From positions 1-32,386 of IMG/VR virus record IMGVR_UViG_3300042691_033936: a stretch of DNA of 32,386 bases; one strand, given 5' to 3'. Shown piece by piece: positions 4,815-30,088 of this stretch. The stretch comes from a virus. The position numbers and the translations under genes are program-made. A model generated the notes under the pieces. It saw only the letters and a program-made list of their open reading frames with translations, did no database searches and was not told where the DNA came from. Every line of letters starts with the position of its first letter. The first letter of the stretch is position 1.

Positions 4815-6425
4815 TTAAAGAGCAACTACCAAACCTGTCCTTGAAATTTCAATTGTGTTTGGTGTAGTATTGTTTATTACTGTTTGGCAATTCAATGGTG
4901 TTATAGAAACATTTGTAAGTGTTATTGTATTTTTTATTTTTCCACTGGCAGGACACCTTTTATCAGAAGAAATTGGTGTAAATATTTTCAATATATTTGT
5001 AATATTAACCGTACCCCCATTGGTTATTGTTGCTTGATATGTTTTTGTAAATGCGGTTGTATATGTAAGTCCTCCTTCACAACTAGGTCTTGGTGTTGTT
5101 TGTGTTATTAATCCTGAATTTATTGGTGAAGAAAGTGTTGCGGTACCTGTTGTTGAACCAGATATTGTGTTTTGTAAATTTGAAAGAACACTAACCACTG
5201 TTGATAGTGAGGTTTCTGCGGTTAATGTTGAAGAAACATTTATTGTAAATGATACAGTTGAGTTTGATGGTAAGTTAGGTACTGATATCATCCATTTTTT
5301 TGTAGTGCTAGTAGTGTTAGGAATGATAACATTATTACCTACTTGTATTTGTTGTAAATTTAAATTAAATGTGTTACTTGATGATGTGTTATTTAAAGTT
5401 ATTGGATTAGTTGCTACCGCATTTGTTGAGTCTTTTACGTACACCAAATAATTACCAGCACTTAACCCAAAAAATATGTTCGGTGAATTTTGATATGAAA
5501 ACCCATCTAAAGAATATGAGTAAGGTGGGATACCACTTTGTACATTAATAGTTATAGATCCGTCGTTGGAAGATGCGCAAGAAGGATCATCTTTTAGGAC
5601 ATTAAAGGTTATCGGTGGTGTAACGCAAGTTCCTGATGTTACTGTTATTTGTTGGGAATAAGAACCGCTAACAATCCAACTACCTGCAGGATAATCAACA
5701 GGAAATGGAAAATTAGGTGTACTAGTACCTGTCCATCCACTAACCATCCATCTTGTTTGACCTGTGTTGTAATATATTGTGTATGATGGTGTCACACTTG
5801 TCCAAGTTTGGTACCCATTATATGTGTCTCCACTTGAGAAATCAACTTGTACTAATGATGTTAATATACTAGCGTCATACTGTGCAATATTCATACATAA
5901 ATTCACAGGTAACGGTATTGGTGGGGGTGGTGGTATAATACAATCAACACATTCATCAAATGGTCCGTTCTGTATAATTGCAAAATTGTTGATGTAACTT
6001 TGTGTATTATATAATGTTATACCACTACTTATCCAACAATCATTTTGTGTTGTTAAGTTATATATTTTTCCGGGAATAAAATTTGATGGTAAGTCCGCTA
6101 AATAATAAACTTTAGTATTGTCTTTACAATTTTCAAATTCTTCCAAATAAAAACTATCAAATCCAACGTTACATGTTGTTGTTGCAGTAAAATCACCATA
6201 ATAATCAACAACAGTTGCTGTATAACTTCCAGGACTGACATTTGAAAGAAATGTTCCTTGTTGTCCATTATTCCATGTTACATTATATGGTGGTGTACCT
6301 CCTGTTATGTATAAAGCAATAAAACCATTTGTAGCATCAGGAGTAGACACATTAATACTATCACAATCTAAACCTAAAGGTAAAATTGTTATAATATTAC
6401 AACTATTTCCACTTAATAATCCCAT
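4815..6425 (-). CDS. Tail fibre/adhesin with two SprB-like repeats (536 aa)
   Basis: Residues about 20 to 85 (GLDCDSINVS, ITGGTPPYNVTWNNG, SNVSPGSYTATVVD) form a clear SprB-type immunoglobulin-like repeat, the module that fills Bacteroidota gliding adhesins. A second copy occurs at about 275 to 345 (DDPSCASSNDGSITI, SGIPPYSYSLDG, GLSAGNYLVYVKDS). Between them is a short proline tract (about 163-173, PPPPPIPLP) separating domains. The C-terminal 190 residues are Ser/Thr/Asn-rich beta structure without a recognised family. No signal peptide is present, as expected for a cytoplasmically assembled virion protein. The start codon lies 3 nt after the stop of the 174-residue gene, so the two are coupled. 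The likely role is a distal tail fibre or baseplate decoration that contacts the host surface (inference from context). Confidence 0.8.
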   Translation of the reverse strand: MGLLSGNSCNIITILPLGLDCDSINVSTPDATNGFIALYITGGTPPYNVTWNNGQQGTFLSNVSPGSYTATVVDYYGDFTATTTCNVGFDSFYLEEFENCKDNTKVYYLADLPSNFIPGKIYNLTTQNDCWISSGITLYNTQSYINNFAIIQNGPFDECVDCIIPPPPPIPLPVNLCMNIAQYDASILTSLVQVDFSSGDTYNGYQTWTSVTPSYTIYYNTGQTRWMVSGWTGTSTPNFPFPVDYPAGSWIVSGSYSQQITVTSGTCVTPPITFNVLKDDPSCASSNDGSITINVQSGIPPYSYSLDGFSYQNSPNIFFGLSAGNYLVYVKDSTNAVATNPITLNNTSSSNTFNLNLQQIQVGNNVIIPNTTSTTKKWMISVPNLPSNSTVSFTINVSSTLTAETSLSTVVSVLSNLQNTISGSTTGTATLSSPINSGLITQTTPRPSCEGGLTYTTAFTKTYQATITNGGTVNITNILKIFTPISSDKRCPASGKIKNTITLTNVSITPLNCQTVINNTTPNTIEISRTGLVVAL

Positions 6426-6971: not shown

Positions 6972-7259
6972 TTATTGAAAATTATATTCTGTTCCATCCA
7001 TAAATTCAAAGTAATTACCATCTTGGAACTGTTTTCCATAAGCTGAAAATACTTCACAGTATGTACATCCTGCATTATCCACCAATTTTACTACATATGA
7101 AGTATATGTTTCATATATTGAGGGTAATGTGAAAGTATAAGGGGCGGTTGTTATTGTATCTATCAATTGACACACACCTCCTGAACATATATCACACACA
7201 TAAACATTATAGGGTGTTGAACCTGATGTTATTGAATTTATTGTTATATCTATTGCCAT
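6972..7259 (-). CDS. Single-domain SprB/Ig-like small virion protein, paralog 1 (95 aa)
   Basis: This 95-residue protein is essentially one SprB-like beta sandwich: ITINSITSGSTPYNVYVCD, then CQLIDTI, then VVKLVDNAGCTYCEVF. A short Gly/Asp-rich tail (GNYFEFMDGTEYNF) follows. The same layout is seen in the 146- and 96-residue proteins encoded at 9560-10000 and 10012-10302, so the three are paralogs. Five Cys residues are present; the other two copies also carry several. A perfect TATTTATA element stands 5 nt before the ATG. Likely a small decoration or tip protein of the tail fibres (inference from neighbours). Confidence 0.75.
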   Translation of the reverse strand: MAIDITINSITSGSTPYNVYVCDICSGGVCQLIDTITTAPYTFTLPSIYETYTSYVVKLVDNAGCTYCEVFSAYGKQFQDGNYFEFMDGTEYNFQ

Positions 7260-8963: not shown

Positions 8964-8975
8964 GTAAATGAATTT

Positions 8976-9563
8976 ATGTTTGATAATCCATTAGAATTAG
9001 ATAGGTCGGGTAAGTGTGTTTTAGTCGGTAATGGTCCTTCCGTTATGTACAGTAAATTGGGTAATAAAATTGACCAATTTGATGAGGTTTTACGTTTTAA
9101 TGAATGTAAAATCAAAGGGTTTGAAGAATATACCGGAACAAAAACAACTATTTGGTCAACTTTTGGTCGTGGTGTTTTACCTAAAGACGAGGAAGTAAGA
9201 CCAAATAAAGTAATATTTACACATGGAGAGTATGGGAAACCCGCTTACACGCCAGATAAATTATGGAGAATACCTTTAACCTATTATAATAATTTAAGGT
9301 CTAAAATTCAAGCCGAATCAAAAAAACCAGACCCTTCTGTTTTGTTACCTTCTAGCGGTATTTTAATTATAAAATGGTTATTAGAAAACGTATATGATCA
9401 TTTACACATCATAGGTTTTGATAGTTTTTCTAAAGACATTAGTAATAAACATCATTATTGGAATGAACAAAAATTTACTAAACCAAAAGAACATGACGAT
9501 GAATGGGAAAAAAACTTTATTCAAAATCTTATAAACGATAAAAAAATTTTTATTCTATCTTAA
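8976..9563 (+). CDS. GT29 (sialyltransferase-family) glycosyltransferase
   Basis: This 195-residue protein carries all the GT29 landmarks. An L-type motif has GKCVLVGNGPS (12-22) and IDQFDEVLRFN (32-42), followed by GTKTTIW. An S-type motif reads LPSSGILIIKWL (124-135), then HIIGFD (144-149). A VS-type motif is H159-x4-E164 within HHYWNE. Family members transfer sugars from CMP-activated donors, classically sialic acid. The enzyme lacks a signal peptide or membrane segment, unlike eukaryotic Golgi members. I prefer ATG 8976 to a TTG 15 nt upstream because the ATG follows a -7-like element. It is the only plus-strand gene here. It is divergent from the 538-residue fibre gene, and its stop overlaps that of a convergent gene, so it looks like an inserted moron. 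It could modify host surface glycans or the phage's own Ser/Thr-rich fibres; donor and acceptor are unknown. Confidence 0.85.
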   Translation: MFDNPLELDRSGKCVLVGNGPSVMYSKLGNKIDQFDEVLRFNECKIKGFEEYTGTKTTIWSTFGRGVLPKDEEVRPNKVIFTHGEYGKPAYTPDKLWRIPLTYYNNLRSKIQAESKKPDPSVLLPSSGILIIKWLLENVYDHLHIIGFDSFSKDISNKHHYWNEQKFTKPKEHDDEWEKNFIQNLINDKKIFILS

Positions 9564-10000
9564 CAAGGGCACAAATTACCTAATTCAGATATTATACCAC
9601 CAAAACTAGATATTACATTTGGTGTGGTTGATGAAGAAAAGAAAAATTCTGTTGGGTAACTAACTGTTGTTGTGATTGTTGAACCGCTAGGACAACAAGG
9701 GTCATATGAAAAACTTATAACACCTGGATGTCCCCATTTCACTTTATATTCACTACAAACACATGTTCCAGTGTATCCTGTTAAACAATTTTGTATTTCA
9801 TCATGAACACATCCATTAGTATCTATAAGTCTTAATAATAGTGTTTCTTCACTAGGAAAATAATTATCACTATCTATTATAACACTTGGAGGGATTGAAC
9901 AATTTCCCGACACAAAAAAACAAGAGGTTCCTCCTGTGTTACAAAGAAAAATATCGTATGGTGATTGACCACTAGTTACTCCTGTTATTTCTATAATCAT
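9560..10000 (-). CDS. SprB/Ig-like small virion protein, paralog 2 (146 aa)
   Basis: Residues 1 to about 75 repeat the fold of the 95- and 96-residue neighbours: IIEITGVTSGQSPYDIFLCN, then SCFFVSG, then LLLRLIDTNGCVHDEIQNC. A further 70 residues are Cys- and Ser/Thr-rich (TCVCSEYKVKWGHPG, SYDPCCPSGS) and end in NLCPC. The ninth-to-last bases before the ATG read TATTTATTATT, identical to the 5' flank of the homing endonuclease gene. Its TAA overlaps the TAA of the convergent glycosyltransferase gene within a shared TTAA. Likely a tail-fibre decoration protein; no enzyme motif is visible. Confidence 0.75.
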   Translation of the reverse strand: MIIEITGVTSGQSPYDIFLCNTGGTSCFFVSGNCSIPPSVIIDSDNYFPSEETLLLRLIDTNGCVHDEIQNCLTGYTGTCVCSEYKVKWGHPGVISFSYDPCCPSGSTITTTVSYPTEFFFSSSTTPNVISSFGGIISELGNLCPC

Positions 10001-10011
10001 AATAATAAATA

Positions 10012-10302
10012 TTAACCAAACACAATACCTTCTCCGTCCTCTGTTGTTAAAATAAATCCGTCTTCAGTAATTATAAAATATGTTTCAACAGCACAATCTA
10101 TTGTCTTAAAAGTAGAACATCCATTACTATCAACTACTTTCACTAAAAAACTAGTTGCGGTTGAATAAAAGGTTGATGCGGTATAAGTACCTCCTGTAGT
10201 ACCCAAATATGAACAGTTATTACCATTTTGATCACATAAAAAAAATGTAAGTGGTGGTACACCTCCAGTAATTCCTGATATGGTAAAAACTTGAGTACTC
10301 AT
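10012..10302 (-). CDS. SprB/Ig-like small virion protein, paralog 3 (96 aa)
   Basis: This 96-residue protein is a single SprB-like domain: TISGITGGVPPLTFFLCDQN, then CSYLGTT, then FLVKVVDSNGCSTFKTIDC. The tail is a short tandem of similar strands (ITEDGFILTTEDGEGIVFG) and resembles the GNYFEFMDGTEYNF tail of the 95-residue paralog. Tails with repeated 'TEDG' strands are common at phage fibre tips, so it may be a tip or capping protein (inference). The start overlaps the stop of the 757-residue gene by 4 nt (ATGA), so translation is coupled to that large structural protein. Confidence 0.75.
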   Translation of the reverse strand: MSTQVFTISGITGGVPPLTFFLCDQNGNNCSYLGTTGGTYTASTFYSTATSFLVKVVDSNGCSTFKTIDCAVETYFIITEDGFILTTEDGEGIVFG

Positions 10303-12580: not shown

Positions 12581-14992
12581 TTATGGTTGGTTTATTTCAA
12601 AAGTGTATCCTGACATACCACAACTTATTGGTGGTGGTAATGGTGTTGGGGTAGGTGTTGGTGTTGGGGTAGGTGTTGGGGTAGTTTCACAATTAACGTC
12701 ATACACAATCTCTAAACCTAAACTAAAGGGTGCGTCAGACAAAGGATCATAATCACCATTACAATTAGATTTAATTTGTAATGTATTATTAATTAAATCA
12801 ACAGAATAACTTCCAACATCACTAATACTTGAAAGTATGTTTTCTATAGTAGATTGCCAAAGCGTGTCTTGTGGAACATCATTTAACGTAGTTGCGGTGT
12901 AAAAACTTTGGGTATATGCACTACCATTTATATTTACTTCAGCAGTAAACACTGCCCCGCTAAAGACACATCCGGTGTACCCTGATGTTATGTCCAAATA
13001 ACCTTCATTTAACATATCTGAAAACCCTCTTTGATTACCTGTTGTTGTCACAAAAGTGTTATTACAAAGTGTATAGATGTCATAATAAGTCACTAAATTA
13101 GAATTGCAATTTAAAATAAAGGAGTGGTTTTTAAAACATCCGTTTGAATCACTAACAAGAACACTATATGTACCCGCAGTTAGTCCGGTTACGGTACTAC
13201 CTGTTTGGACGCCAGGTACGTTGTTTGACCAAGAATAACTGATTGGTGGTAACCCATCAAAAATATTAACAGTTGCTGTTCCATCACCTGAACCCGTACA
13301 AGTTGTTGTTGATATTGTGCTTAATAAACTTCCTGATGTACTAATTATCACTTGTTCTGTAACTGAACACCCACTTTGGTCGGTTACTGTAATATTATAA
13401 CTTCCAGCATATAAATTTGTAAAAGTATATGAAGATAAAGTACTATCAATAATTGGTGGTACTCCACTAACTACATAATCTAAAAATCCAGTATAACCAC
13501 TACCTACCTGTATTTCTAATGCCCCATTATTGTAACCACAAGTTGACCCTGTTGTTGTTGCACTTATTGTAAACTTTTGTTGCGATGTAACATTAATTAC
13601 GTTTGAATATACACAATTACTACTAGATGCTGATATAACTAAAAGGTAATTATCATTTGCCAATAGTGGTGAGGTATAACTTAAAAAAGGACCGGTCTCT
13701 ACGTTTACAATACCACTAGTTTGTCCTGATAAATAATAATTATATATGTTATATCCACCTGATAAATTAACTTGTATTTGACCATTATTTTGTGAACAAT
13801 TAGAATTAGTAATTGTTGTATTAACAACATTGAACCCATTAGGTGTGATTAAAAAATCATTCAAAGTAAATTCACAAAAATTAGCATCTCTAACAACTGT
13901 AGTATAATTACCGTTAGTTAATCCTGTAATTATAAAGGTATCCGAAAGTGTGTACCCAATTTGTCCTGTATTTGCCGAATAATAAAATGGTGCAGTACCA
14001 CCAGTTAAAGTGTAGGTGATAGTACCATCAGACATAAAACAAGACGGAGGTAAAGAAGTGACTAACCCTAACCCTATTGGGTCAGCTACCCCTATTGTTT
14101 CATATTTTGTAGTTGAGCAACCTAAATTATCAGTAACAGTACAACTATAAGACCCCTGAGTCAGTCCTGTAATCAACTGAGTAGTTTCTCCATTAGACCA
14201 AAGATATGTAAAAGGTGCGGTACCTGTTACACCTGTTACGGCTAACTTACCTTTGTCAATAACACAGTTAGATGTATTAACTTTCCATAAACCAAAATCA
14301 ACCCCTGTACTAGGTATTACAACACCGTTACCTGTTGTTGCAGTAACATTACCGAAATCAACAAAATTCACATAATAAACACCTGAAGATAAATTAGTAA
14401 ATTGATATGGTTGTGTTGGTGTTGTCACCACGTCATATAAACTTCCGTCTTTATATAATAATAAATTATATGGTGAAGAACTTGTCGTTGCACTCACATA
14501 AAAGGATCCATTATCTAAACCACAAGTTGTACCTGAAACACCATATAAAGAAGCCCTGAAACAACCACTAATTATTACGTTAACGTAAATATCTTCATTT
14601 ACCCCACCAGATGAATCATTAATTCTAAACGTATAAGTGTCTGCACTTAAACCACTAAATGTAAATGGACCTAAACCTGTTTGTGACGGAATACCTCCAG
14701 GTATTTCGTTATTAATAGTATATATAGGGGTACCATTATAGACATCAATAATTGCGGTACCTGAAGAAGAGTAACATGTTCCTGTTACTGAAAATGAATA
14801 ATCTAATGGACCTAAATTACAGTCAATTGAACATGTGCTAGCCGTGTTAGCACTTATACCTACGGTTGTACTTGAGTATGCTGCGTCTATACAAACTGTT
14901 TGTAAAGATGTTGCAAATCCATTTGTTTTTATTCCGCAACAATTTATATACTCATAAAAACCACCAAGCGTTATACCACTAATACAAGCCAT
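12581..14992 (-). CDS. SprB-repeat adhesin-like tail fibre (803 aa, seven repeats)
   Basis: At least seven SprB-type immunoglobulin-like repeats are visible, at residues about 66-140, 145-226, 238-301, 310-382, 388-468, 473-550 and 556-628. The clearest are TAPFTYLWSNGETTQLITGL with TQGSYSCTVTDNLGCSTT, and FDGLPPISYSWSN with LTAGTYSVLVSDSNGC. Hallmarks are C-x-xx-DG/NG starts, 'PPYxYxWSNG' cores, 'GLxxGxYxVxVxDxxGC' ends. These repeats are known from Bacteroidota gliding/adhesin proteins (SprB, PF13573). A C-terminal domain (about 630-770) and a (TP)n tract (about 775-790) follow. No signal peptide or type IX sorting domain is present, so it is a virion protein rather than a secreted adhesin. 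Its start overlaps the stop of the 983-residue baseplate gene by one nt, suggesting attachment to the baseplate. Likely a host-contact fibre. Confidence 0.88.
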   Translation of the reverse strand: MACISGITLGGFYEYINCCGIKTNGFATSLQTVCIDAAYSSTTVGISANTASTCSIDCNLGPLDYSFSVTGTCYSSSGTAIIDVYNGTPIYTINNEIPGGIPSQTGLGPFTFSGLSADTYTFRINDSSGGVNEDIYVNVIISGCFRASLYGVSGTTCGLDNGSFYVSATTSSSPYNLLLYKDGSLYDVVTTPTQPYQFTNLSSGVYYVNFVDFGNVTATTGNGVVIPSTGVDFGLWKVNTSNCVIDKGKLAVTGVTGTAPFTYLWSNGETTQLITGLTQGSYSCTVTDNLGCSTTKYETIGVADPIGLGLVTSLPPSCFMSDGTITYTLTGGTAPFYYSANTGQIGYTLSDTFIITGLTNGNYTTVVRDANFCEFTLNDFLITPNGFNVVNTTITNSNCSQNNGQIQVNLSGGYNIYNYYLSGQTSGIVNVETGPFLSYTSPLLANDNYLLVISASSSNCVYSNVINVTSQQKFTISATTTGSTCGYNNGALEIQVGSGYTGFLDYVVSGVPPIIDSTLSSYTFTNLYAGSYNITVTDQSGCSVTEQVIISTSGSLLSTISTTTCTGSGDGTATVNIFDGLPPISYSWSNNVPGVQTGSTVTGLTAGTYSVLVSDSNGCFKNHSFILNCNSNLVTYYDIYTLCNNTFVTTTGNQRGFSDMLNEGYLDITSGYTGCVFSGAVFTAEVNINGSAYTQSFYTATTLNDVPQDTLWQSTIENILSSISDVGSYSVDLINNTLQIKSNCNGDYDPLSDAPFSLGLEIVYDVNCETTPTPTPTPTPTPTPLPPPISCGMSGYTFEINQP
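12631..12684 (-). repeat. GGTGTn/GGGGTA hexamer tract encoding Thr-Pro repeat
   Basis: Plus-strand hexamers GGTGTT, GGGGTA, GGTGTT repeat and encode the (TP)n tract near the C-terminus of the 803-residue fibre protein. The tract has the same unit as the tracts in the 538-residue gene about 4 kb away, giving potential homology between the two genes. Confidence 0.8.
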
Positions 14993-17943
14993 TAACTACA
15001 ATTTATTTGAATGTTTATACCAATATTTAATGATAAAATTTTATTTGTGAAGTCATCGTAACAAGTACTATTACTTATAGTTAAAACATTACCACTAAAA
15101 AAATAATTAAGCCCATAATTATGAAGACCTTGTAGTTTTTCATTTATTGCATTTACTACTTCACTATTTGTTGGGAAATCGTTATATCCGTATCCAACAT
15201 AAAATTGTTCTTGAACTAATATTTGGTTATCTAATCTGCAGTCAACATACCATGTAGAAACCATAGAATTTAAGTCGCATTGACTTTGGGTGTACCCACT
15301 AACTGTGAGTATCTTATTTAATATGTTTATTAACACACCTGCAGGTGATTGTGAAGGTAATTCACATTTAAGAGTTTGATCAATACAATCATAAACGAAT
15401 GGTTGTCCATTGTACTCACAAGGTACACATTCAATAGGTATGAAAACACAACCTCTTTGTCTTCTCCAAACAAATTTTTGTCTGTGGAATATTGAATTAT
15501 CTAATTTTTGACCCGTTAACCAAAGTGTTGTTGACGGCACAACCTGTTCTAATAATCTTTGCCAATAATCACCTAAACCTAAAGTATAATCAATAAGTTT
15601 TTGATATGTAAATTTGTTAGTTGGGAGTCCAACGGTTTCTTCAGATTGTAAATATCTCCAAAAAACTGATTGTAATGTTGGGTAACCTCCAGTTTTCCCG
15701 TCAAATATTGTTTGTCTATTTCTTACATTTATAAAATTATTATAAAATGACTGAGCAAATTCAAAAAACGTTTTTTCTTTTGGTTTTGGGTTAATAGTAG
15801 TCCAATCAATATTTCCCGGTGTTGGGTATGGTGCGGTAAGCGCCGAATTAGGTATTGGATATCCGTTTTTAACCGAAAGTTCCCAAATATCATAAGTTAT
15901 ACCTTGGCCAACATTGGCATATAATTCTATATTTTTAGAATTTATGACTAACTTGTCATCGGTAACATTATAATTAACTCCGTTAAAATTTTCTTTACTT
16001 GTTCTATTCCCAACAGTGTTACTTGCCCATGATTTTTTATTATCACTTATTTTTGTTAATGTATAACCCATACCACCCATAAAATCAGGATTTCTGAATT
16101 TATTCATATATTCTTGTCCAAAGGTAAATGGTTGTAATTTTGTTTTTAAAGATAAATTTCTTGGATCAAGTGATGAATTTTCTTCATCAATAACTTCAGG
16201 TGATCTGTGTTTAGGACTTTTTTCAAACCAACCCGACCCTTTTTGGTAGAATGTATTTTCAGTAGGTCTTGGACTTGTTGGATACCCATCTTTATCTATC
16301 CCATAATCTTCTCTAGTATTACTATTAAAGTTTAAAACCCCCTCAGCAGTATACCCAGTGTAATTCACTCCTTGAATAGAATACACATCGTTAGGGTTAG
16401 GTAATGGGCTTTCTATATATATTGTTCCTCCAGATATTTGAGCGTATTTTTCCTCAAACTCATCCATCCTTATTTTACCGTCCGCAACATAGATAACTTC
16501 ATTGAACTCAACTAATGCTTCAGGTGCACCTATAAATCGCATAATATACTCAAGAGATTGTCTTGTACCTTTGGATTTAAACATATACGCAGAATTCAAG
16601 ATAACGTTTCTAAAATACTGGTAATTTAACTCTGTCGGTGAATCGTCTTTAGATTTACCTGTGTATATTTTTTTACTTGAACTTGAAAAGACAGAATCTA
16701 AAAAATTTTCATTTGTTATTGGTGAAATATCAGAATTAATACCTAAAGTTTGTGCAAGATTTGTTAAAAGTTGTGATGGAATATCATTACCAACATTATA
16801 ATTAACTGAAGTCATGTGTGATAAAGAATCTACAAACTTTTTTACTTCATCAAAACTTCTACCATATATCTGTAGTATTTTTTCCATCTTTTTATCTGAA
16901 GTATCAAACTCTTTAAAAGAATTGGTTGTTAAAAATCTAGATATTAAATTTGTTTTTTGTTGGTCAATAATTTTCCCTATCTCACTTAATCTTTGTAAAT
17001 AATTTTCAAAATTAGTCGTACTTATATCTAAATTCCATTGGTCAATTAAAGGCCAATTTATTTTCTTTACAAAATTTTTAATTTTACCGTCTCCCCCCGT
17101 TTCAGAGTATTTAAAAACTGCTGTATATTTAGGTACAATATTTCTATTTAATAAGAATTTTTCAACCTCATCAAATTCTAAATTAAAAATATTTTCAACT
17201 GTCAGATTATTTGGTTTAATCATGATTGTTCTAGTGTGTGCAGTTGCTCCAGAAAACGGATCACCCTTAACTGTCATATTTACAACATCACCCTGTAACT
17301 GTTCTGAAGGTGTAAATGTAATTATTTGGTATTCTTCACTAAAATCGTTAGTATAAAATGCGTAACTTGTATAATTGTTTGTTAAATCTCTATACTTAGA
17401 GACAGGTATTGGTGCAGTCTCTATTGTCCTTGCGGCGTTTACGGTATAATCAATATTAAATGGATTTCTAAATGCGGTAGTGTTCATGTCAAAATTAGTG
17501 ACATCTTCTAAAGGATCATAAAAAGCGTTAAATGCCGTCTGTGCTGTTATTGACCCAAAAATATATTCTTCGGTAATAAGTGCCGCTGGAAATTTATTTA
17601 TTATTCCAATAACCGACGATGATAATCTTTTTTGTAAAGAACCGTAGGTACAAAAACTTGTTAGCTGTGTTAAATCAAAATTAGGGTATATCTTAAAGTT
17701 TTTCTGTATGATTGACTTTGTTTCTTCAATATCAGTAATATTAAGTGTTTGTAGATTTTGTGGTGATGAAAACACACCAGTATCAAAGCTTCTATTATTT
17801 TTGTCTTTTACGTTATTAGTAAATTCAAAATTAGCATTAGTAAGTCCACCACCAGCAACGGTTTGAAACCCAACTAAGTCGTTAGAAAACGTTTCAGAAC
17901 CTACGGGTGGTGCTGGTGGGTAAAAATATTTTTTAGTAGCCAT
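14992..17943 (-). CDS. Baseplate wedge protein, candidate gpI/gp7-like (983 aa)
   Basis: Residues about 450-482 (FKSKGTRQSLEYIMRFIG, then VEFNEVIY) resemble the 'K-G-T-xx-[AS]-[IL]-x-x-[IV]-x-x-[LF]-G' core of P2 gpI-type baseplate proteins. These, with gp25 and gp6/J, make the wedge of contractile tails. The protein is much larger than gpI. The N-terminal 300 residues are beta-rich, about 300-450 are helical, and about 500-820 are mixed. From about 831 a Cys-rich extension follows (CVFIPIECVPCEYNG) with a C-terminal domain (FPTNSEVVNAINEKL, TISNSTCYDDF, GINIQINC). That last domain looks like the end of the 803-residue neighbour, so it may be a fibre-docking module. One-nt overlaps on both sides indicate tight coupling. 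The gpI assignment is inference; T4 gp7 similarity is not directly visible. Confidence 0.7.
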   Translation of the reverse strand: MATKKYFYPPAPPVGSETFSNDLVGFQTVAGGGLTNANFEFTNNVKDKNNRSFDTGVFSSPQNLQTLNITDIEETKSIIQKNFKIYPNFDLTQLTSFCTYGSLQKRLSSSVIGIINKFPAALITEEYIFGSITAQTAFNAFYDPLEDVTNFDMNTTAFRNPFNIDYTVNAARTIETAPIPVSKYRDLTNNYTSYAFYTNDFSEEYQIITFTPSEQLQGDVVNMTVKGDPFSGATAHTRTIMIKPNNLTVENIFNLEFDEVEKFLLNRNIVPKYTAVFKYSETGGDGKIKNFVKKINWPLIDQWNLDISTTNFENYLQRLSEIGKIIDQQKTNLISRFLTTNSFKEFDTSDKKMEKILQIYGRSFDEVKKFVDSLSHMTSVNYNVGNDIPSQLLTNLAQTLGINSDISPITNENFLDSVFSSSSKKIYTGKSKDDSPTELNYQYFRNVILNSAYMFKSKGTRQSLEYIMRFIGAPEALVEFNEVIYVADGKIRMDEFEEKYAQISGGTIYIESPLPNPNDVYSIQGVNYTGYTAEGVLNFNSNTREDYGIDKDGYPTSPRPTENTFYQKGSGWFEKSPKHRSPEVIDEENSSLDPRNLSLKTKLQPFTFGQEYMNKFRNPDFMGGMGYTLTKISDNKKSWASNTVGNRTSKENFNGVNYNVTDDKLVINSKNIELYANVGQGITYDIWELSVKNGYPIPNSALTAPYPTPGNIDWTTINPKPKEKTFFEFAQSFYNNFINVRNRQTIFDGKTGGYPTLQSVFWRYLQSEETVGLPTNKFTYQKLIDYTLGLGDYWQRLLEQVVPSTTLWLTGQKLDNSIFHRQKFVWRRQRGCVFIPIECVPCEYNGQPFVYDCIDQTLKCELPSQSPAGVLINILNKILTVSGYTQSQCDLNSMVSTWYVDCRLDNQILVQEQFYVGYGYNDFPTNSEVVNAINEKLQGLHNYGLNYFFSGNVLTISNSTCYDDFTNKILSLNIGINIQINCS

Positions 17944-20864: not shown

Positions 20865-22563
20865 AATTATCTATAGTTATAGGGGTTATAAGTGTTGTTT
20901 TAACACTTGTACTTCTTTTCACCGGATACTGTAAAAATATTATGTTTTTAAATGGGTAATGTGCGCCATTAGTAAAGGGATAATTAACACCAATATTATC
21001 ACCATCTATATATCCATAGTCATATAAATCTCTCCAAAAAAATGATTCTTCATATTGTGAATACCAAGCATATGTTGGTATGTTATCAACTTCGGAAGCA
21101 TTTCCAAATTCTAAATAATCACTAAAGGTTCTTATTTTAATACTATTATGTGGATTATAAAGATACCCACTAGGTTCATTCAATGATGAGTTATCATAAA
21201 AAACATTATAGTTAAACGAATATTTGTGAAAAATTTTAGAAACAATATATTCTTTTTGTTCGTAATCATTGTATTCACAAAAATCGCCTTTTATAACATC
21301 ACCAACATTCAAAGGTTCGTTGTAATAAAAAGTTTGACCGTTTGCGTTATAACTACCTACGGGTATTGAATCTTTGTTATTTGTTGATGTATGGTCCCAC
21401 CATGAATCATATGTATTTTTTAAAAAATTAAATCCCCACCCAATATCTATTGCTGTGTTTTGACCAACTGACGGTTGATTAAAAAATCCAAAATACCCTT
21501 TATTGATAATGGTCACAAATAATTCAGTTAATGGTTTACCATTATTATCTTTTAGTCCGTTAATATTAATATCTTTTACAAAATTAAAAGAGTGGTTTTG
21601 TGTACTTTCTTTTATTGAAACTCTTTGAACTTGGTTTGGTGTTATTGCCGAATACTCTAACTTTTTCTTTGTAAAAAATGGGTTATTATCAAAACCCGCC
21701 TTTGTAATATTACAGTCATTTACGTCTGTTAATATTTTATGCAATCTAACATAATATCTAGATTTTGTTTCTGCACTATTTTTTAAGTTAGTTAGTCTTT
21801 TAAAATTACCAAAAGTGCCCGGTAATATATCATTAACGGGAAACTTCATATCATAAATTGTAAAAACATTTTTTTCTGTTCCGTAATTTTCATCACCCAA
21901 ACTATAAACTTGAAAAGTATTCCTATTGTTTATAGTGATATTTAATTCCACATAATCGTTAGGTTGTAAATTGTGGTTTCCTCCACAATAGAAATAAACC
22001 AAAGACCTGCCTCCAACAATTTTATTTTCTAAAACAAATGGAATACCTTGTTCAACATTAAATGTGTTAGTTACTGAAAAATTCTCATTAGTATAAGACA
22101 TTGTTTGGGCGGTTGTGCTACTAAAAGGATAAGTAACATAAAAAGACCAATTATATGTATTAGCACTTTTAGGAGCATAATTAATGTGACCATTAATTCC
22201 GCTAACCCTAAAAAAAGAAAATTCGTCAAATTGTGGGTAACCTTCCCAAGGCGAACCAGGTAATGATAATGCATTATTAACCGGATTCGTGTAATATAAA
22301 TTATTAACAAATGGCGTGTAGGTTGTTTTTCCCGATATCGTGTTATTTAAAATATTGGATATTTTACCAGAAACCCTAAAAAAAGTACTACCTTGTCTTT
22401 CTATATTAAATCTTTCTTCGGCATCTACAACAATTGACCTATCACCCTCAACCATAGTTCTTCTAACCCCACTCAAAGGAACCTGCAAACTAACATCTTT
22501 GTCGGTGTTTCCCGCAAATCTTTTAGATCCTAAAACTATCCTTATGTCGTTTTCATTACCCAT
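20857..22563 (-). CDS. Baseplate-associated structural protein (568 aa)
   Basis: I recognise no family for this 568-residue protein. It opens with MGNENDIRIVLGSKRFAGN and continues as an Asn/Tyr/Phe-rich, largely beta-structured chain. There are repeated aromatic stretches in the C-terminal third (AWYSQYEESFFWRDLYDYGY), which could form trimeric or sugar-contacting surfaces. It has only three Cys and no transmembrane segment. The start shares one nt with the stop of the 1652-residue gene, and the end overlaps the 278-residue gene by 8 nt. Stoichiometric co-translation with both neighbours points to a common baseplate sub-assembly. Confidence 0.72.
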   Translation of the reverse strand: MGNENDIRIVLGSKRFAGNTDKDVSLQVPLSGVRRTMVEGDRSIVVDAEERFNIERQGSTFFRVSGKISNILNNTISGKTTYTPFVNNLYYTNPVNNALSLPGSPWEGYPQFDEFSFFRVSGINGHINYAPKSANTYNWSFYVTYPFSSTTAQTMSYTNENFSVTNTFNVEQGIPFVLENKIVGGRSLVYFYCGGNHNLQPNDYVELNITINNRNTFQVYSLGDENYGTEKNVFTIYDMKFPVNDILPGTFGNFKRLTNLKNSAETKSRYYVRLHKILTDVNDCNITKAGFDNNPFFTKKKLEYSAITPNQVQRVSIKESTQNHSFNFVKDININGLKDNNGKPLTELFVTIINKGYFGFFNQPSVGQNTAIDIGWGFNFLKNTYDSWWDHTSTNNKDSIPVGSYNANGQTFYYNEPLNVGDVIKGDFCEYNDYEQKEYIVSKIFHKYSFNYNVFYDNSSLNEPSGYLYNPHNSIKIRTFSDYLEFGNASEVDNIPTYAWYSQYEESFFWRDLYDYGYIDGDNIGVNYPFTNGAHYPFKNIIFLQYPVKRSTSVKTTLITPITIDNCE

Positions 22564-25500
22564 TATACGTTCAAAATATATTTAGTTATGTATCTGTTTA
22601 TTGCTGTTTTACCTACATTCAAACCAAAATAAAAATGGTATGGGGCGCCAACAACATATTTATCAGATTGTGATGGTGGCCAAGGAGTTGCCGATTGTAC
22701 TCCGTTTGAGTCGGTATTGTATATGTATCCTTTTTGTCCTGTCGGTCCATTATTAAAATATGGTGAAAACGGCGATTGGATAAAACTAAGGTCTTGATAT
22801 TTTTCAGAAAAGAACCCATTACCACTAATGTTTTGGTTTGGGGTTGTAAACCAATCATTTAATTCATTACCAAAAATTGTATTTTGGTCCGCAGAATACC
22901 ATTTATACATTGGGACTTCCTGCGATTTTGGGTATCCAAAATTTGAAGTTAGTGTTGGTGAAAAAACTATAGTTCCTGGTGAGGCCAAAGCCCTTCTTGG
23001 TGTTTCAGAAGAAAAGAAAATACCCATTAGTGGATCGGGTCCTGGCGGTACATATAAATCATTAGGACTGTCATATTCATCTTCGCTGAATGGTATAATT
23101 CCAAACTCAGAATTAATACTGAACATTTGCACAACATCACCATCCATTCTGTCTTCAGTTCTAGAAAATAATTTATTTATTGATGCGTCGCCGGCACCTA
23201 TTATGTTTTGTAAAAAATTACTACTAACTAGTCTTGAAACAAAAAATAATTGTAATATGTCTGCAGTTTCGTTAAATGATGTAGATTTTAAAGTATTAAC
23301 AAAATACGCTTCTAAAGCCGGATTAAAACATATCTCTCTAACAAACTCATCTCTTGAACCCAAATCCATCAAAGTGGTTGGGAAGAAGATGTTATAATCA
23401 TTTATCCCTTTAAAGTCAACGTCTTGCCAGTTACCTGATAAATCTTTCTTTTTTGGTTTTTGGCCAATAAAATAATTTCCGTCATATGGTGTTGATCTAT
23501 AAAATAATGAGTTAGTCGTTCCTTCAGTGTAATAAATAGGTCCTTGTCCTGGTCTAAAATTATTATCAAACGTACCACAAAATTTATATTTTTTTGGTTG
23601 TCCTAAAATATTAAAAATAGTTTTCTTTTTGAATGAATACATGTAAAGTGTGCCATTTACCCAATTATTTTGAAATACGTGTGAGAACACTCCTCTACAC
23701 GCACCAAACATCATTCTAAATCTGGCCTTCCATTCTGCAAAATTAATAATATCTTTACCTATTGACACAATAAAAGGTTTCTGTATAAATTTGTAACAAC
23801 CACCTATAACAACTTTTGGGTCGTTTTCATCACAAGGGTCTTTAACAATAAAATTACCATTACTATCGTAATCATAACACTTTAGTGGTACCATTCCTTC
23901 ACAACTAAAAGTACTCAAAACACTATCTTGAACAGATGGGGTGTCTCCCGTAAAATCTCCTGAATTATTAGTTGAGTCTGTTGCAACGTTACCTGTCGGT
24001 GGATTAGGTGGTGCGTCGGACCCATAATCTTGTTTGTAAATTGCAAAATTATCGTTTTGGTGAAGCGCAAATGAATTGTTTCCAAAATTTTGTAACTTAT
24101 CTGAGGTAGGTAGCCTATCCGATCTTAAAATTAATTTTGGGTTTGCTGAAGTAATATTTAATGTTATTGTTGGGTATTTAGGAGCATATACTCTACCTTT
24201 ATAATTTCCTAAAGATCCAAATATATTTCCGTTAGCGGTTGTACTACCAATGAAAGACCCTCCTTCAACATTACCCTGTTTTAAAGTTGTGTTATCAAAT
24301 CTAATAGTTTGGTTATTATTACTACTATCGTCAACTGAATTAGAAGAAGTGTAAAAACTTAAAGAGTATGCGTTAGAATCAGGTTGAAAGTTTAAATTAC
24401 TTTTATCTAAAGATGAGTAATAACTTAAAGAGGTACTTGTCACTGAAGTAAATTGCGTTGTATCAACTGTAAAATTATATGGATCAAAAAATATTTTACT
24501 ACTTAAATTATTTGTATGTCCTTCGGGTGATTTACTATTTATATACCAACCACCACTACCGCTATTATCTTGTATAGGTATATTCATATAAAAATCACCT
24601 TCAACTTTAACTGTATCACTGTTTAATCCATAACCAAATAATTTTGATAAATCGTATTTAATTTTTTGTTTTTCGGTATATGGATCTACCCCCCTAACTA
24701 AAAATAATATTTCTAAATTTTTCCAAACAGAACCACCCATATCTTTTAATTGGTTGATGGTTACGTCTGAATTATTACCATTTGATTTTTCGTAATAAAT
24801 CTTTTGATATTTTTCTATAAAATACTTTTTTAATAGTGATTGGTTAGCACTTAATAGTGTATTTGTATAATCGGCAGTCATACCTGTTATTACTTGAAAA
24901 TACTCAATTCCTGTTTTGTATTTATATTCTCTCTCTGATGTTGTTGCGGTCAAATAAACCGTAGATTGTCCAAGAGTCGTGTTTGGTTTTATATAATAAA
25001 CAGTTTTTTGATGAACAGTTGTGGAACTTACTGAGGATCCAGTAATGCTATTTGTACCAAATTGGTTGGTTGCTCCACTCACATTATTTATATCATTCAC
25101 TATACCTAAATTATTTGTATCTACAAATGAAAGTATACTTCCAGAGTTAAAATTTGTTAGTGTTCCAGGTTCACATAATAATACCATAACATTATCGGTA
25201 AATGGTTGTGATTGGTAAGTTCCGTTAATTAGAGTAGTTTGAATTATATTTTGAGCAGTTGTGTCAAAGTATCTTTCTCTTAGGTTTGCTAAATTTAATG
25301 ATTGTGAGTATGGAACTCCCTGAGATTGTACGTATTGATAATCAGAAAATATACTAACGACAGGTGTACCTATTTCTGGAGGTGTGGGGTAACCAGCCAA
25401 TGAATATCTGAAACCATTTAAGTCTGCCTGTAATTTATTCTGTTCGGTTTGAGCACCACCAGAATAATCTTCACTATTCATACCAACAGGTACTGTATTA

Positions 25501-27521
25501 GTTTGATCTCCCTGTAATATGCCCCAAGTACTACCCACATTTGTATCCGCCAAAAAAGAACCTCCACTTCTATTATAAACAGTATAATTACCATACGTTT
25601 GAGACCCACCTTGTCCATTCCCTGAAGAAAATACAGTTCCCGTAACATCAGGAGTATCTAAGTCTTCACTCTCACAAGGACAAGCCTCACAATCAGGGTA
25701 CGACATCATTGGTAAATTAATACCTTTAAATTTAAATGCCACTAATAGTGGTGCAACTTTAATTGCAAATGCGGTTGCTGCTCCCGCCATCAATATCGCT
25801 TTAACAAATGACCAAGCAACTAATCCAAAAGCAGGCCAAGCATTAACACCATCAATACCATATAAAACGGCTTGATAAAGTAAAAATGCTGGAAATAAAA
25901 TCGCCAAAAACCATTTTAAGATTGGCCAAAGTAAGGCCATTACGTGTATAATTGGTATAAGAGCCAAAAATACGGGTGTCATTATTGTTACCATCAGATT
26001 GAATAAGAAAAATGTAAAATCAAAATTTCTTACTCCGTCATTTACTGGAAATCTATTTGTTGTTGTGGTACACCTTCTATCGGTTATTTCTTTTATCCCT
26101 AAATGTCTACTTCTATTAAATCCCCACTTCCATCTATCTATAAAATTAGCAACCGTATAAACTTTATTAAATGTAAACTCATAGAATCTATCTTTACAAT
26201 CAATAGCCTCTTGAGCCATTTGTTGACCAACAGCGGTTGTTAAATCACCATAGTCATTCCAATCTAAACTAAATGCGTATGACCTTTTTTGTTGATCTAA
26301 CTGTGTTGAGTTAAAAGTGTCAGGACCATTAATATTAGAACTAGACCACCCCCACTCTTTTACGTTAGGTACCAAATAATCTCCCCTCATTATATCGTTT
26401 TCCATACCAGACTCATTTTGGTATTGGATTCTAAATCTATATTTACCTTTGGTTGGTATTCCCACTGCAGGATCGTTTGATATTACCTGTTCCCCAAATT
26501 CATTTGTAACAACATAATCTAAGTTCATTGGTACTTCTACTAACCACGTACCATTTTCATCAATAACGTCACCTCCGTTTTCTAAAGAAAACTGTTCTAA
26601 AACAGGTCTACCGTTCGCATCATAATCTATTGTTTGTCTTATTGCTAAAATTTTACCTTCACCAGTGACCATATCACAAAGGTTACCTGCATCTTTTTTT
26701 GGTTTACATGTTGTTTTTAAAAAGTCTTCATTTGATGTTGAAAATATTGAACCCATAAAAACCGCCTGCGGTTTTATTTCAATACCTAATTCTCTTAAAT
26801 CAAAATCAACTCTTGTTATACCTATATTACATATTTCTTCTTCCCCCCAAAATGAAGTAACGTCTATATCTTTTTTAAAATTTACAATTTGTGGTAATGA
26901 ATCAATATCTGTTGATGATTTAAATTGGTTTCCATTAAATTGTCCTGGTCCCGCTAAACCCGCTCTTATTAAATCTGCAGGTCTTAAAGAAAAACAACCA
27001 ATGTTTGATAAATCTAAATCCATCATAATTGTTTGTATACCTAATGGAACACCCACAATCATAAAATCACCACTCTCATTGGTTTTAGCGGTAAACTTAT
27101 AATACTTTTCGTAAACTTCTAATACCTCATTCCTTGTTAATAAGTCTTCTCTGTCAGGAAAAGTTCCTGTTGGTGTGTGTCCTCCGTATTCTTTTCTGTA
27201 TGGTAAAAGATTATACCTATACCCGTCCTCGTTTTTTTGATCAATTCTTTTGTATGGATATAATGTTGATATTACAACATCATTTTGGTCAATTTCAGAT
27301 AATGGAATAAAAATAGAAACGTTGGCGTTAGGTATTCCATAACCTCCGTTCACTATTACCCTACCAGCAACCACACCATAGTCGGCACAAAATCTCGTAT
27401 AAACATCTTCTTGTTTTAACTTCAAAGAAAGTATCTCTAAAAAGTCAAAATTTTGATTTATATTTATTCTAATATTTTTATCTACATTAAAATCAGTTCT
27501 GATTCTATAATTATTACCCAT
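22563..27521 (-). CDS. Giant baseplate-region protein with regulatory-like domain and hydrophobic belt (1652 aa)
   Basis: Residues about 44-180 look like a carboxypeptidase-regulatory-like/transthyretin-type beta sandwich. VAGRVIVNGGYGIPNANVSI is followed after an insertion by FTAKTNESGDFMIVGVPLGI. A second similar region may span about 245-390 (WLVEVPMNLDYVV, KGKYRFRIQY). Residues about 498-600 are strikingly hydrophobic (FFLFNLMVTIMTPVFLALIP, IIHVMALLWPILKWFLAILF, FVKAILMAGAATAFAIKVA), enough for three to four membrane-spanning or buried helices. They are followed by a Cys cluster (CEACPC, about 606-612). The last 1000 residues are Ser/Thr/Asn-rich beta structure. It sits directly after the gp6/J-like gene and is coupled to the 568-residue gene. 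Unlike most virion proteins it could contact or enter a host membrane at infection (inference). An SD-like AAAGGG precedes it. Confidence 0.78.
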   Translation of the reverse strand: MGNNYRIRTDFNVDKNIRININQNFDFLEILSLKLKQEDVYTRFCADYGVVAGRVIVNGGYGIPNANVSIFIPLSEIDQNDVVISTLYPYKRIDQKNEDGYRYNLLPYRKEYGGHTPTGTFPDREDLLTRNEVLEVYEKYYKFTAKTNESGDFMIVGVPLGIQTIMMDLDLSNIGCFSLRPADLIRAGLAGPGQFNGNQFKSSTDIDSLPQIVNFKKDIDVTSFWGEEEICNIGITRVDFDLRELGIEIKPQAVFMGSIFSTSNEDFLKTTCKPKKDAGNLCDMVTGEGKILAIRQTIDYDANGRPVLEQFSLENGGDVIDENGTWLVEVPMNLDYVVTNEFGEQVISNDPAVGIPTKGKYRFRIQYQNESGMENDIMRGDYLVPNVKEWGWSSSNINGPDTFNSTQLDQQKRSYAFSLDWNDYGDLTTAVGQQMAQEAIDCKDRFYEFTFNKVYTVANFIDRWKWGFNRSRHLGIKEITDRRCTTTTNRFPVNDGVRNFDFTFFLFNLMVTIMTPVFLALIPIIHVMALLWPILKWFLAILFPAFLLYQAVLYGIDGVNAWPAFGLVAWSFVKAILMAGAATAFAIKVAPLLVAFKFKGINLPMMSYPDCEACPCESEDLDTPDVTGTVFSSGNGQGGSQTYGNYTVYNRSGGSFLADTNVGSTWGILQGDQTNTVPVGMNSEDYSGGAQTEQNKLQADLNGFRYSLAGYPTPPEIGTPVVSIFSDYQYVQSQGVPYSQSLNLANLRERYFDTTAQNIIQTTLINGTYQSQPFTDNVMVLLCEPGTLTNFNSGSILSFVDTNNLGIVNDINNVSGATNQFGTNSITGSSVSSTTVHQKTVYYIKPNTTLGQSTVYLTATTSEREYKYKTGIEYFQVITGMTADYTNTLLSANQSLLKKYFIEKYQKIYYEKSNGNNSDVTINQLKDMGGSVWKNLEILFLVRGVDPYTEKQKIKYDLSKLFGYGLNSDTVKVEGDFYMNIPIQDNSGSGGWYINSKSPEGHTNNLSSKIFFDPYNFTVDTTQFTSVTSTSLSYYSSLDKSNLNFQPDSNAYSLSFYTSSNSVDDSSNNNQTIRFDNTTLKQGNVEGGSFIGSTTANGNIFGSLGNYKGRVYAPKYPTITLNITSANPKLILRSDRLPTSDKLQNFGNNSFALHQNDNFAIYKQDYGSDAPPNPPTGNVATDSTNNSGDFTGDTPSVQDSVLSTFSCEGMVPLKCYDYDSNGNFIVKDPCDENDPKVVIGGCYKFIQKPFIVSIGKDIINFAEWKARFRMMFGACRGVFSHVFQNNWVNGTLYMYSFKKKTIFNILGQPKKYKFCGTFDNNFRPGQGPIYYTEGTTNSLFYRSTPYDGNYFIGQKPKKKDLSGNWQDVDFKGINDYNIFFPTTLMDLGSRDEFVREICFNPALEAYFVNTLKSTSFNETADILQLFFVSRLVSSNFLQNIIGAGDASINKLFSRTEDRMDGDVVQMFSINSEFGIIPFSEDEYDSPNDLYVPPGPDPLMGIFFSSETPRRALASPGTIVFSPTLTSNFGYPKSQEVPMYKWYSADQNTIFGNELNDWFTTPNQNISGNGFFSEKYQDLSFIQSPFSPYFNNGPTGQKGYIYNTDSNGVQSATPWPPSQSDKYVVGAPYHFYFGLNVGKTAINRYITKYILNV

Positions 27522-27597: not shown

Positions 27598-29436
27598 TTA
27601 TGAAAAGTCTACCGTTTTAAAGTTTTTAGTTCTAACCTTTATATCTACTTGATCAAATCTAACTTGGTATACTTGGTCAGGTTCAGCAAATATATTGTCA
27701 TCAATTAACTGAATCTCTTTTGTAGCAGGATCTTTATATCTTTGCGATGTTTCAGAAGACGAATATTTTCCACCAATTTTATTAAACACTTTTAAGTCAG
27801 CTATTGTCAAAACTCCTTGTAAATTTTGTATTTGTTTTCTCATTTCTGAAATATTTACACCCTGACCTAAATCTCTATTAGCCGGAGCCATATAATTTGA
27901 AACAATTGAAATAATTTCAGTTATGACTTGTCCTTGATTTCTATCGGATTCCATAACCACTGAGATATCAAATTCTAAATCAATAACTTTAGCATTATCA
28001 ATTGATATATAATCATTAACCATTCTAAACCTTGATAAGTAATTAGCTAAATTATTTTTTAAATTATTAGATGTAACTTGAGTTAGTTTACCATTATTAT
28101 CGTATGATAAAACTTGAATTAAAATTTTATTATTATTTTCAGTTATTGATACTTTTGCAGGTGCACCAAATCTTCCAGGCATAGTATCAATTAATGATTT
28201 ATAGTCGTTTATTGTAACGGCTCTTTTTTGAGCGGCAAAATTAAAAGCAACCATGTTTCTCATTTCTTCTGTTGTTGGTGGGTTTGATCCACCAATGGCC
28301 GCAGTAATGTTATTAACTGTTAATGACTGAATAACATTTCTACTAATTTGGTCATTTGGTCCATTAACAACAAAATCAATAGTACCTATTTGATTTATTG
28401 ATCCTGACCCTACATTACTTCCAGAACCTCCTCCAACTCTATATTGTACAAATATTGTCGTATTAGGTGTAACAGTTAACCCAAGACCGATATTATTTTG
28501 ATAATCTTGTAGTCTAAGTTTAACTCCTGTGTTTGTAAATTCTTTCAATTGTTGTTCTGGCGTTGTTGTACCCGCACCAAACTGAACTTTCATAAATCCT
28601 TCACCCGTATATTCAGTTATAAATCTATTATCGGTACGAATATATTTACCAGGTTTAATACCAAACGCATCCACCGGTTTTGTTGGGTCCTCAACAAAGA
28701 CCATATCTTCTGCCAATGCGTCAACTTCATACCATTTATTTGTTGATCCTTGAAATTCAGCATAACTTGGTACAGATTGAAATGAAGTCCCATCTTTTTG
28801 AATTATTCCTGTAACCCCGAGAACATTTTTTTCAGGAAGAAAAAAATTAAAGAATGGTACAACGTCTGTTGATCTAACAGGTTTTTTAAAGACCTTTGTT
28901 GTCCCTGCAACTACCACCTCTCTTTTTGTGATCACATAGTTTAAAATGTTATTATTTGCATCAAATGTTGGTATTTTAGTTCTATTAACAAATCCTTGTT
29001 GGTCGTACTGTGTAGAAAAATCAATGTCATAAAGATTTTCAAATGAGTTACCCCCTCCAAAAAATTGTGAACCGGCTCTTAAAATTCCCAAATATCTAAT
29101 ATCTTCAGAATCACCAAATGGTGGTACCGTAATAGAAAAATCAACAATAGCAACTGAAGGTCTATAACCTGGTATTTTCAAACCATAAGTTCTAGCAATA
29201 TTATATATTGACGATTTTTGTTGTGCATATTGTAGTACGGTTTCTTGTGCCGTCCTATCTATGTGAAAATGTAAATTATCGGCAATCGCTGCATTTAAAT
29301 CCATTAACACAGAAAACACCGAAGCGTCATTAAAATTTTGTATTAAATCTGGATAATACTTTTGGGTAAAGTTGATGAGTTCATTTCTTAAACCAACAAA
29401 ATCTCTTTCTGTATAAGATAGTTTTTTTTCTGCCAT
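27598..29436 (-). CDS. 6: Baseplate wedge protein gp6-like (baseplate J family)
   Basis: This 612-residue protein has the typical gp6/J N-terminus. LSYTERDFVGLRNELINF is followed by the 'D-x-S-x-x-x-x-L-[ML]-D-L' region (FNDASVFSVLMDLNAAIADN), then the helix HFHIDRTAQETVLQYAQ and the strand GLKIPGYRPSVAIVDFSI. The middle contains the gp6-type Gly/Thr-rich beta domain and GGSNPPTTEEMRNMVAFNFA near residue 395. In contractile tails this protein dimerises, bridges neighbouring wedges and drives the sheath-triggering change of the baseplate. Length is close to T4 gp6 (660). It lies 4 nt downstream of the gp25-like gene, the usual order, and precedes the giant 1652-residue protein. Confidence 0.92.
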   Translation of the reverse strand: MAEKKLSYTERDFVGLRNELINFTQKYYPDLIQNFNDASVFSVLMDLNAAIADNLHFHIDRTAQETVLQYAQQKSSIYNIARTYGLKIPGYRPSVAIVDFSITVPPFGDSEDIRYLGILRAGSQFFGGGNSFENLYDIDFSTQYDQQGFVNRTKIPTFDANNNILNYVITKREVVVAGTTKVFKKPVRSTDVVPFFNFFLPEKNVLGVTGIIQKDGTSFQSVPSYAEFQGSTNKWYEVDALAEDMVFVEDPTKPVDAFGIKPGKYIRTDNRFITEYTGEGFMKVQFGAGTTTPEQQLKEFTNTGVKLRLQDYQNNIGLGLTVTPNTTIFVQYRVGGGSGSNVGSGSINQIGTIDFVVNGPNDQISRNVIQSLTVNNITAAIGGSNPPTTEEMRNMVAFNFAAQKRAVTINDYKSLIDTMPGRFGAPAKVSITENNNKILIQVLSYDNNGKLTQVTSNNLKNNLANYLSRFRMVNDYISIDNAKVIDLEFDISVVMESDRNQGQVITEIISIVSNYMAPANRDLGQGVNISEMRKQIQNLQGVLTIADLKVFNKIGGKYSSSETSQRYKDPATKEIQLIDDNIFAEPDQVYQVRFDQVDIKVRTKNFKTVDFS

Positions 29437-29440
29437 ATTT

Positions 29441-30088
29441 TTAAATATTAATTATTATAAATTCTTTTGACCCAAACGGACTATTATTGTCGGTATACAC
29501 TATAGTTAATTTTGCCGTATAATCTAAGGTATTAGGACCAGGTGTTTTAAATATATCTGTATAACTTTCATCGTTATCGGCCTCAGTATCTTCAAATTGT
29601 TGTCCTACATAATTGTAAAAAGTTTCTCCAGAAAAAGGTGAGATTATAAATTCGGGAACTTGTGTTGGGGTGACATCGTCGAATGGTTGGGTAGCAATTC
29701 TTCTTCTTATAATGTTTTCATTCACTAATTCTTCTGAACTAAAAAAGTCGATAGTTTTTATCTTATCTTGATTATCGGTCTCTTCTGGTGTGTATGGTTC
29801 CACCTTTATATCCGTCACATCTAAGTTTGGTATATATTTTTTGACTTGTGTATCAACCTCTTCTCTTATATTCTCAAAAGTTTCCCCATCCATTGGGTCA
29901 AAAATATATTTATATATTTCAGTTCCAAAATCAGGATCATAATATCTAGTCCCTTTTTGGGTTAATAATAAATGTAAAAGGGACGCCCTTATTTCATCTT
30001 TAGATTGGTATGTCAATCCAAAGTAAGTGCCCGCAATACTATCTTGAAAAGGAAAATTAATTCCAAAAGTATAAACATCTTGTGCCAT
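29441..30088 (-). CDS. 25: Baseplate wedge protein gp25-like (GPW/gp25 family)
   Basis: Residues about 28-62 show the family core: SKDEIRASLLHLLLTQKGTR, then YYDPDFGTEIYKYIF, corresponding to the 'L-x-T-x-x-G-x-R-x-x-P-x-F-G' motif of gp25/GpW. The conserved core bundle then continues (FENIREEVDTQVKKY). At the spot where many members have Glu-Pro-Arg before the last strands, this one reads Ile-Pro-Asn (YIPNLDVTDIKV). The chain is 215 residues against about 130 for T4 gp25. The extra 100 C-terminal residues are acidic and include FSGETFYNYVGQQFEDTEAD. gp25 nucleates sheath polymerisation and joins gp6 in the wedge core. The gene starts 4 nt after a TATTTATA element and follows a strong terminator, so it heads a late unit. 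Confidence 0.92.
   Translation of the reverse strand: MAQDVYTFGINFPFQDSIAGTYFGLTYQSKDEIRASLLHLLLTQKGTRYYDPDFGTEIYKYIFDPMDGETFENIREEVDTQVKKYIPNLDVTDIKVEPYTPEETDNQDKIKTIDFFSSEELVNENIIRRRIATQPFDDVTPTQVPEFIISPFSGETFYNYVGQQFEDTEADNDESYTDIFKTPGPNTLDYTAKLTIVYTDNNSPFGSKEFIIINI

Follow-up and report, generated by a model that had tools for sequence, protein, structure and literature searches.

A protein of seven SprB-type repeats in the baseplate gene block of an uncultured phage

SprB repeats and repeated modules of phage virions

SprB of Flavobacterium johnsoniae is a gliding adhesin and a type B CTD protein that is bound by SprF (PMC9143113). The protein described here, which has 803 residues and is encoded by an uncultured phage, resembles the SprB proteins of Bacteroidota (PF13573) in its repeat family, in the tandem array of its units and in their spacing of about 75-87 residues. 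It differs from them in several ways. The phage protein has no evident signal peptide or type IX secretion system (T9SS) sorting domain and is encoded in a phage baseplate operon, its repeats, fixed at seven, are no more than 27-36% alike among themselves, and its C-terminal domain is common with a baseplate-region protein. SprB repeats in phages are already recorded in databases. The best viral structure match, A0A6J5LD72 of an uncultured member of the Caudovirales (714 aa, UniProt/BFVD; E=2.6e-24, 30% identity), is annotated 'SprB repeat', as a catalogue entry only, and our search of the openly accessible literature found no paper that discusses SprB repeats in phages.

Strings of Ig-like beta-sandwich units are likewise found in phage virion proteins, including Hoc, decoration proteins and the gp24 neck whiskers (9occ). 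The 803-aa protein matches gp24 at E=6.4e-5 and, with Foldseek, Hoc at E=3.7e-7, but all of these proteins belong to other Ig families and hold other virion positions. The tandem BACON repeats of crAssphage likewise show a module associated with Bacteroidota in several copies within one phage protein, although the domain family is a different one and the lineage is crAss-like (PMC6949934). The lake jumbo phages that carry ribosomal protein bS21 have predicted Bacteroidetes hosts, and the main text of their report mentions no SprB protein (PMC9723584). Two long relatives of the present phage, of 292 and 297 kb, also encode bS21. Among cultured phages, none encodes the 803-aa protein (tblastn), and the nearest cultured relatives of the gp6-like protein of this phage, those of Flavobacterium phage immuto and Microcystis phage Mel-JY01, are 26-27% identical.

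The seven-unit array and its gene block

The sequence analysed, referred to as the window, is the whole of the 32-kb linear IMG/VR virus record IMGVR_UViG_3300042691_033936, positions 1 to 32,386. The phage is best read as large, uncultured, myovirus-like and infecting Bacteroidota. A Bacteroidota host fits because 12 of the 61 Bacteroidota genomes sampled have PF13573 SprB matches and the 14 control genomes have none. The SprB gene is housed in a baseplate and tail gene block (Table 1), with the gp25-like and gp6-like wedge genes upstream on the same strand, and the gene order around it is kept in the relatives examined. Its start overlaps the stop of the 983-aa gene in the sequence TAATG, which couples the two genes. 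The 983-aa and 1652-aa proteins matched no Pfam or PHROG baseplate family and are termed baseplate-region proteins by context. In a more distant relative (locus L049/L050), a homologue of the 1652-aa protein (37%, E=8e-92, 560 columns) has SprB repeats fused on behind it.

Table 1. Features of the baseplate and tail block in the window, with the spans and scores that the host-only SprB profile gives for each unit
Feature	Coordinates	Strand	Basis or remark	Profile span (residues)	Profile score (bits)
gp25-like baseplate wedge protein	29441..30088	-	homology		
gp6-like baseplate wedge protein (Baseplate_J)	27598..29436	-	homology		
1652-aa baseplate-region protein	22563..27521	-	relative in L049/L050 with SprB repeats fused on the C-terminal side		
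983-aa baseplate-region protein	14992..17943	-	C-terminus (about 14998-15342) homologous to C-terminal domain of the 803-aa SprB protein		
803-aa SprB-repeat protein, probable baseplate arm	12581..14992	-	ORF, PF13573 and host-only profile; 38 relatives		
N-terminal segment, residues 1-62 (MACISG..GG.YEYIDCCG)	14807..14992	-	no hydrophobic signal peptide		
SprB-type unit 1, residues 63-144	14561..14806	-	weak	69-134	14.7
SprB-type unit 2, residues 145-231	14300..14560	-	weak	146-222	14.4
SprB-type unit 3, residues 232-306	14075..14299	-	highest conservation, 73% mean identity in relatives	233-305	54.4
SprB-type unit 4, residues 307-385	13838..14074	-	PF13573 and host-only profile	303-385	46.1
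SprB-type unit 5, residues 386-470	13583..13837	-	PF13573 and host-only profile	381-482	20.5
SprB-type unit 6, residues 471-553	13334..13582	-	host-only profile; predicted Ig-like	465-563	39.1
SprB-type unit 7, residues 554-631	13100..13333	-	best Pfam match; predicted Ig-like	558-636	60.5
C-terminal alpha/beta domain, residues 632-768	12689..13099	-	homologous to C-terminus of 983-aa protein (hhalign 89.8%, E=1.8e-6)		
Variable C-terminal slot, residues 769-803: Thr-Pro linker and ISCGMSGYTFEINQP	12584..12688	-	2-640 aa in relatives		
96-aa single-domain protein, probably SprB-like	10012..10302	-	hhalign 94.6%, E=6.8e-8		
146-aa paralogue, SprB relation unsupported on its own	9560..10000	-	hhalign 9%		
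95-aa paralogue of 96-aa protein, SprB relation marginal	6972..7259	-	hhalign 66.5% over 16 columns		
536-aa tail-region protein, two clear SprB units (about 6195-6380, 5358-5618)	4815..6425	-	PF13573, host-only profile, hhalign		

The PF13573 profile matches the 803-aa protein in four stretches (E=1.3e-13, 50.8 bits; curated cut-off 28), and a six-frame search with the same profile found four places in this ORF, two in the 536-aa ORF and none in the 14 control genomes. Five repeats from the adhesin of another phage were used to recruit matches, and a host-only profile was then rebuilt solely from cellular Bacteroidota (144 repeats). This profile recognizes exactly seven units in the 803-aa protein, within residues 69-636, and gives 212 bits for the whole protein, with units 1 and 2 being the weakest at 14-15 bits. 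The maximum in 1000 shuffles of the protein was 8.3 bits for a whole sequence and 11.2 bits for a single domain, and the reversed sequence scored -37.6 bits. The SprB-type repeats that a preliminary description had read in this ORF are confirmed by both profiles, their number of seven by the host-only profile, and the PF13573 search that it had proposed returned a score above the cut-off. The same description had denied the protein a signal peptide and a T9SS sorting domain, and this is borne out. No signal peptide was evident by simple hydropathy (0.88, against about 1.7-2.8 in exported relatives), and the sorting-domain library, which finds TIGR04131 in the L011, L062 and L102 proteins, finds no such domain here. 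The claimed coupling also holds, to a baseplate-region gene, through the TAATG overlap with the 983-aa gene, and the C-terminal domain is common to the two proteins. Attachment of the 803-aa protein to the baseplate is well supported at the sequence level because of this gene overlap and because its C-terminal domain is homologous to the neighbour's end.

Further SprB-like units had been described in four neighbouring proteins. They are clear in the 536-aa protein, where there are two, and probable in the 96-aa protein; they are doubtful in the 95-aa protein and find no support in the 146-aa protein taken by itself, although BLAST relates it distantly, as a paralogue, to the 96- and 95-aa proteins. 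Seven other window proteins served as hhalign controls and gave 0.1-2.9%.

Units 6 and 7 were modelled together with the C-terminal domain from an alignment of 25 sequences (pLDDT 77.6, pTM 0.39). Units 6-7 reach a pLDDT of about 80 and are predicted to be Ig-like beta-sandwiches, with an inter-domain geometry that is uncertain at this pTM. Their model gives Z scores of 8-9 against Ig-like and FN3 pairs, and Foldseek returns Ig-bearing chains including phage Hoc, Salmonella SiiE and the Aureispira grappling-hook protein GhpA. Of the structure predictions for each repeat that had been suggested earlier, a usable one was obtained for units 6-7; units 1-5 were modelled poorly. A full-length AlphaFold model built from five sequences was discarded (pLDDT 41.5).

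Conserved array, variable tip and probable role

The 803-aa protein has 38 relatives in all, four of them at 59-86% identity over nearly the full length, and 29 proteins form a non-redundant set (<95% identical). Wherever the contig is complete, the number of units (seven) and their lengths are near-constant in these 29, and no unit was gained, lost or replaced in the 38. Mean identity among relatives is highest in unit 3 (Table 1) and amounts to 50-58% in the rest, with units 2 and 5 lowest at 50-51%. The nearest neighbour is the same-position unit of another phage for 252 of 252 phage units and a host unit for none, these units not being independent, as near-identical contigs are included and 29 proteins are left at 95% identity. 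The best host identity of the phage units is 36-49% (average per unit), against 65% for host unit versus host unit. A FastTree of the units groups most of those from phages in clades that contain phages only, with modest support; the units are too short for dating. Exchange of repeats with host adhesin genes, as the preliminary description had suggested, is unsupported with copy number fixed, and for this phage group it is rejected by the nearest-neighbour test. Instead, the repeats appear to have been acquired long ago from Bacteroidota surface proteins, without visible later exchange. Cellular genomes gave two weak partial matches (29-36%) among the matches listed, and there was no prophage or host copy among these.

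The sequence past residue 768 measures from 2 to 640 residues across relatives and often follows a Thr-Pro linker; in the window, the tip past the linker is very short, at about 15 aa. The tip of about 220 aa in three relatives (L026, L041 and L043) is also present at the C-terminus of the 983-aa homologue of another, L017 (39%, E=4e-30). In L016, a Fib_succ_major domain occupies the tip slot (E=1.6e-16), a domain which we take to be linked to C-type-lectin-like binding proteins. End motifs of 21-28 residues are common to the SprB protein and the block's 93-98-aa proteins in relatives. In the window, the short C-terminal end motifs TEDGFILTTEDG.., FEFMDGTEYNFQ and SGYTFEINQP close several tail proteins (10012-10302, 6972-7259, 12584-12688).

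On balance, the 803-aa protein is probably a conserved, baseplate-attached Ig-like arm or spacer with exchangeable tips. Arm or spacer is preferred to variable fibre tip because the variable part is the C-terminal extension past residue 768. Seven SprB-family Ig-like domains, fixed in number, would make a semi-rigid spacer, and the C-terminal alpha/beta domain, common with the neighbouring 983-aa protein, would be the platform on which tips are mounted. The interchangeable tips would be short peptides, the module of about 220 aa or the lectin-like Fib_succ_major domain. The array would extend outwards from the baseplate, leaving host contact to the tip or to other fibre proteins encoded in the block. 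Because the window's tip is very short, receptor contact may come from other proteins in this phage. From the sequence, we infer presence in the virion, a spacer role and receptor contact by the tip.

That the whole protein is instead a receptor-binding fibre, with its SprB units touching host glycans, is rather unlikely. Host adhesins do carry SprB repeats, and the low identity of units 2 and 5 would suit such a role, but conservation within the protein peaks in unit 3, the array shows no gain, loss or replacement of units in the 38 relatives, and the hypervariable, exchanged part is the tip. The position of the gene bears on another proposal, in which the protein would decorate the capsid as a Hoc-like head fibre of Ig-like domains with weak surface or glycan binding. 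The top Foldseek PDB match is RB49 Hoc, a weak PHROG match to Hoc-like head decoration was obtained (E=0.0011, 19.8 bits), and phage decoration proteins are matched weakly by profile. However, a Hoc match is to be expected of Ig-like folds generally, the gene overlaps the stop of a baseplate-region gene within the baseplate block, and the C-terminal domain is shared with the adjacent 983-aa protein, all of which makes capsid decoration unlikely.

The phage repeats are truly related to host adhesin repeats, and gliding components including SprB and RemA have been proposed as phage receptors (PMC7345892; PMC13288928). Both points agree with track binding or mimicry, in which the SprB units would bind a host SprB-type adhesin or its partners on the gliding track and the virion would be captured or carried. 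We consider this quite unlikely, as host-like repeats need not bind the host and phage virion proteins often contain Ig-like spacers. PF13573 was found in only 12 of the 61 sampled Bacteroidota genomes, which means that a SprB partner would be absent from many, and it is the C-terminal tip that varies and is selectable, the unit copy number being fixed. Ig-like folds cross-match weakly and often (PF07495, PF13620, PF17210), and the units might accordingly be ordinary Ig-like domains that merely converge on the SprB profile. Such convergence is highly improbable in view of units 3, 4, 6 and 7, which reach 39-60 bits on the host-only profile, far over the shuffles, and of a Pfam score beyond the SprB cut-off.

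If the protein is a baseplate arm, large Bacteroidota phages of a widespread group would have made a host surface-adhesin module a fixed part of their baseplate. Telling the conserved arm apart from the exchangeable tip points to the site where host recognition may be sought. Since gliding components are suspected as phage receptors, adhesin-like virion modules can be tested for adsorption.

Exported SprB proteins and other genes of these phages

In the 292-kb relative there is also an 819-aa protein (L102:6756-9215(-)). Its N-terminus is hydrophobic and signal-peptide-like, it carries a PKD-like domain and a T9SS type B sorting domain (TIGR04131 E=1.3e-11, CHU_C E=2e-15), and the host profile recognizes two SprB units in it. 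Relatives of this protein make up a separate, widespread phage family and occur on 143 stretches in the IMG/VR scan (L105-L184 are in the family). Among the 73 complete ones, the N-terminus is hydrophobic by a simple test in 66, one or two SprB units are present in 71, and the sorting-domain motif is conserved. The gene lies directly downstream of the tail tube gene in about 25 loci and before a hub-like gene in about 20. Two relatives of the window phage, of 292 kb and 229 kb (G001 and G212), encode both the 803-type and the exported SprB protein. A PorP/SprF search in these phages gave no match, and no control matched either. The one report of phage-encoded T9SS cargo that we found concerns Cryophage, with type A domains (PMC7468147), and we found no description in the literature of type B, SprB-bearing phage cargo. 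It is very unlikely that the gliding-adhesin module acts in two compartments of large Bacteroidota phages, as virion arm and, in these two relatives, also as a T9SS-exported surface protein produced in the course of infection. The two would jointly engage the host SprB-type machinery, on which the arm would dock and which the exported protein would alter or block, for instance to prevent superinfection.

A larger SprB protein, of 1670 aa, is encoded by the 642-kb phage LR756502.1 (L011:13840-18852(+)), the record of which has a terminase match. Its N-terminus is signal-peptide-like, and it has PKD, a T9SS type B sorting domain and SprB matches in 14 stretches (311 bits). With as much as 81% likeness among its repeats, it differs from the window's array, which appears old.

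Other genes of the window were noted beside the tail block. A class II (B12-dependent) ribonucleotide reductase (30452-32311, minus strand; PHROG E=1.9e-132) adjoins the baseplate genes. A gene of glycosyltransferase family 29, sialyltransferase-like (8961-9563; PF00777 E=2.6e-22), lies on the opposite, plus strand within the tail-fibre block; it is kept in the same place in L008-L010, and a GlcNAc-type glycosyltransferase is encoded at roughly the corresponding position in the 292-kb relative. A GIY-YIG homing endonuclease with NUMOD1/NUMOD3 (1846-2523, minus strand) is situated between the tail block and the ORF at 1232-1834, which, judged by eye, is RuvC-like in appearance.
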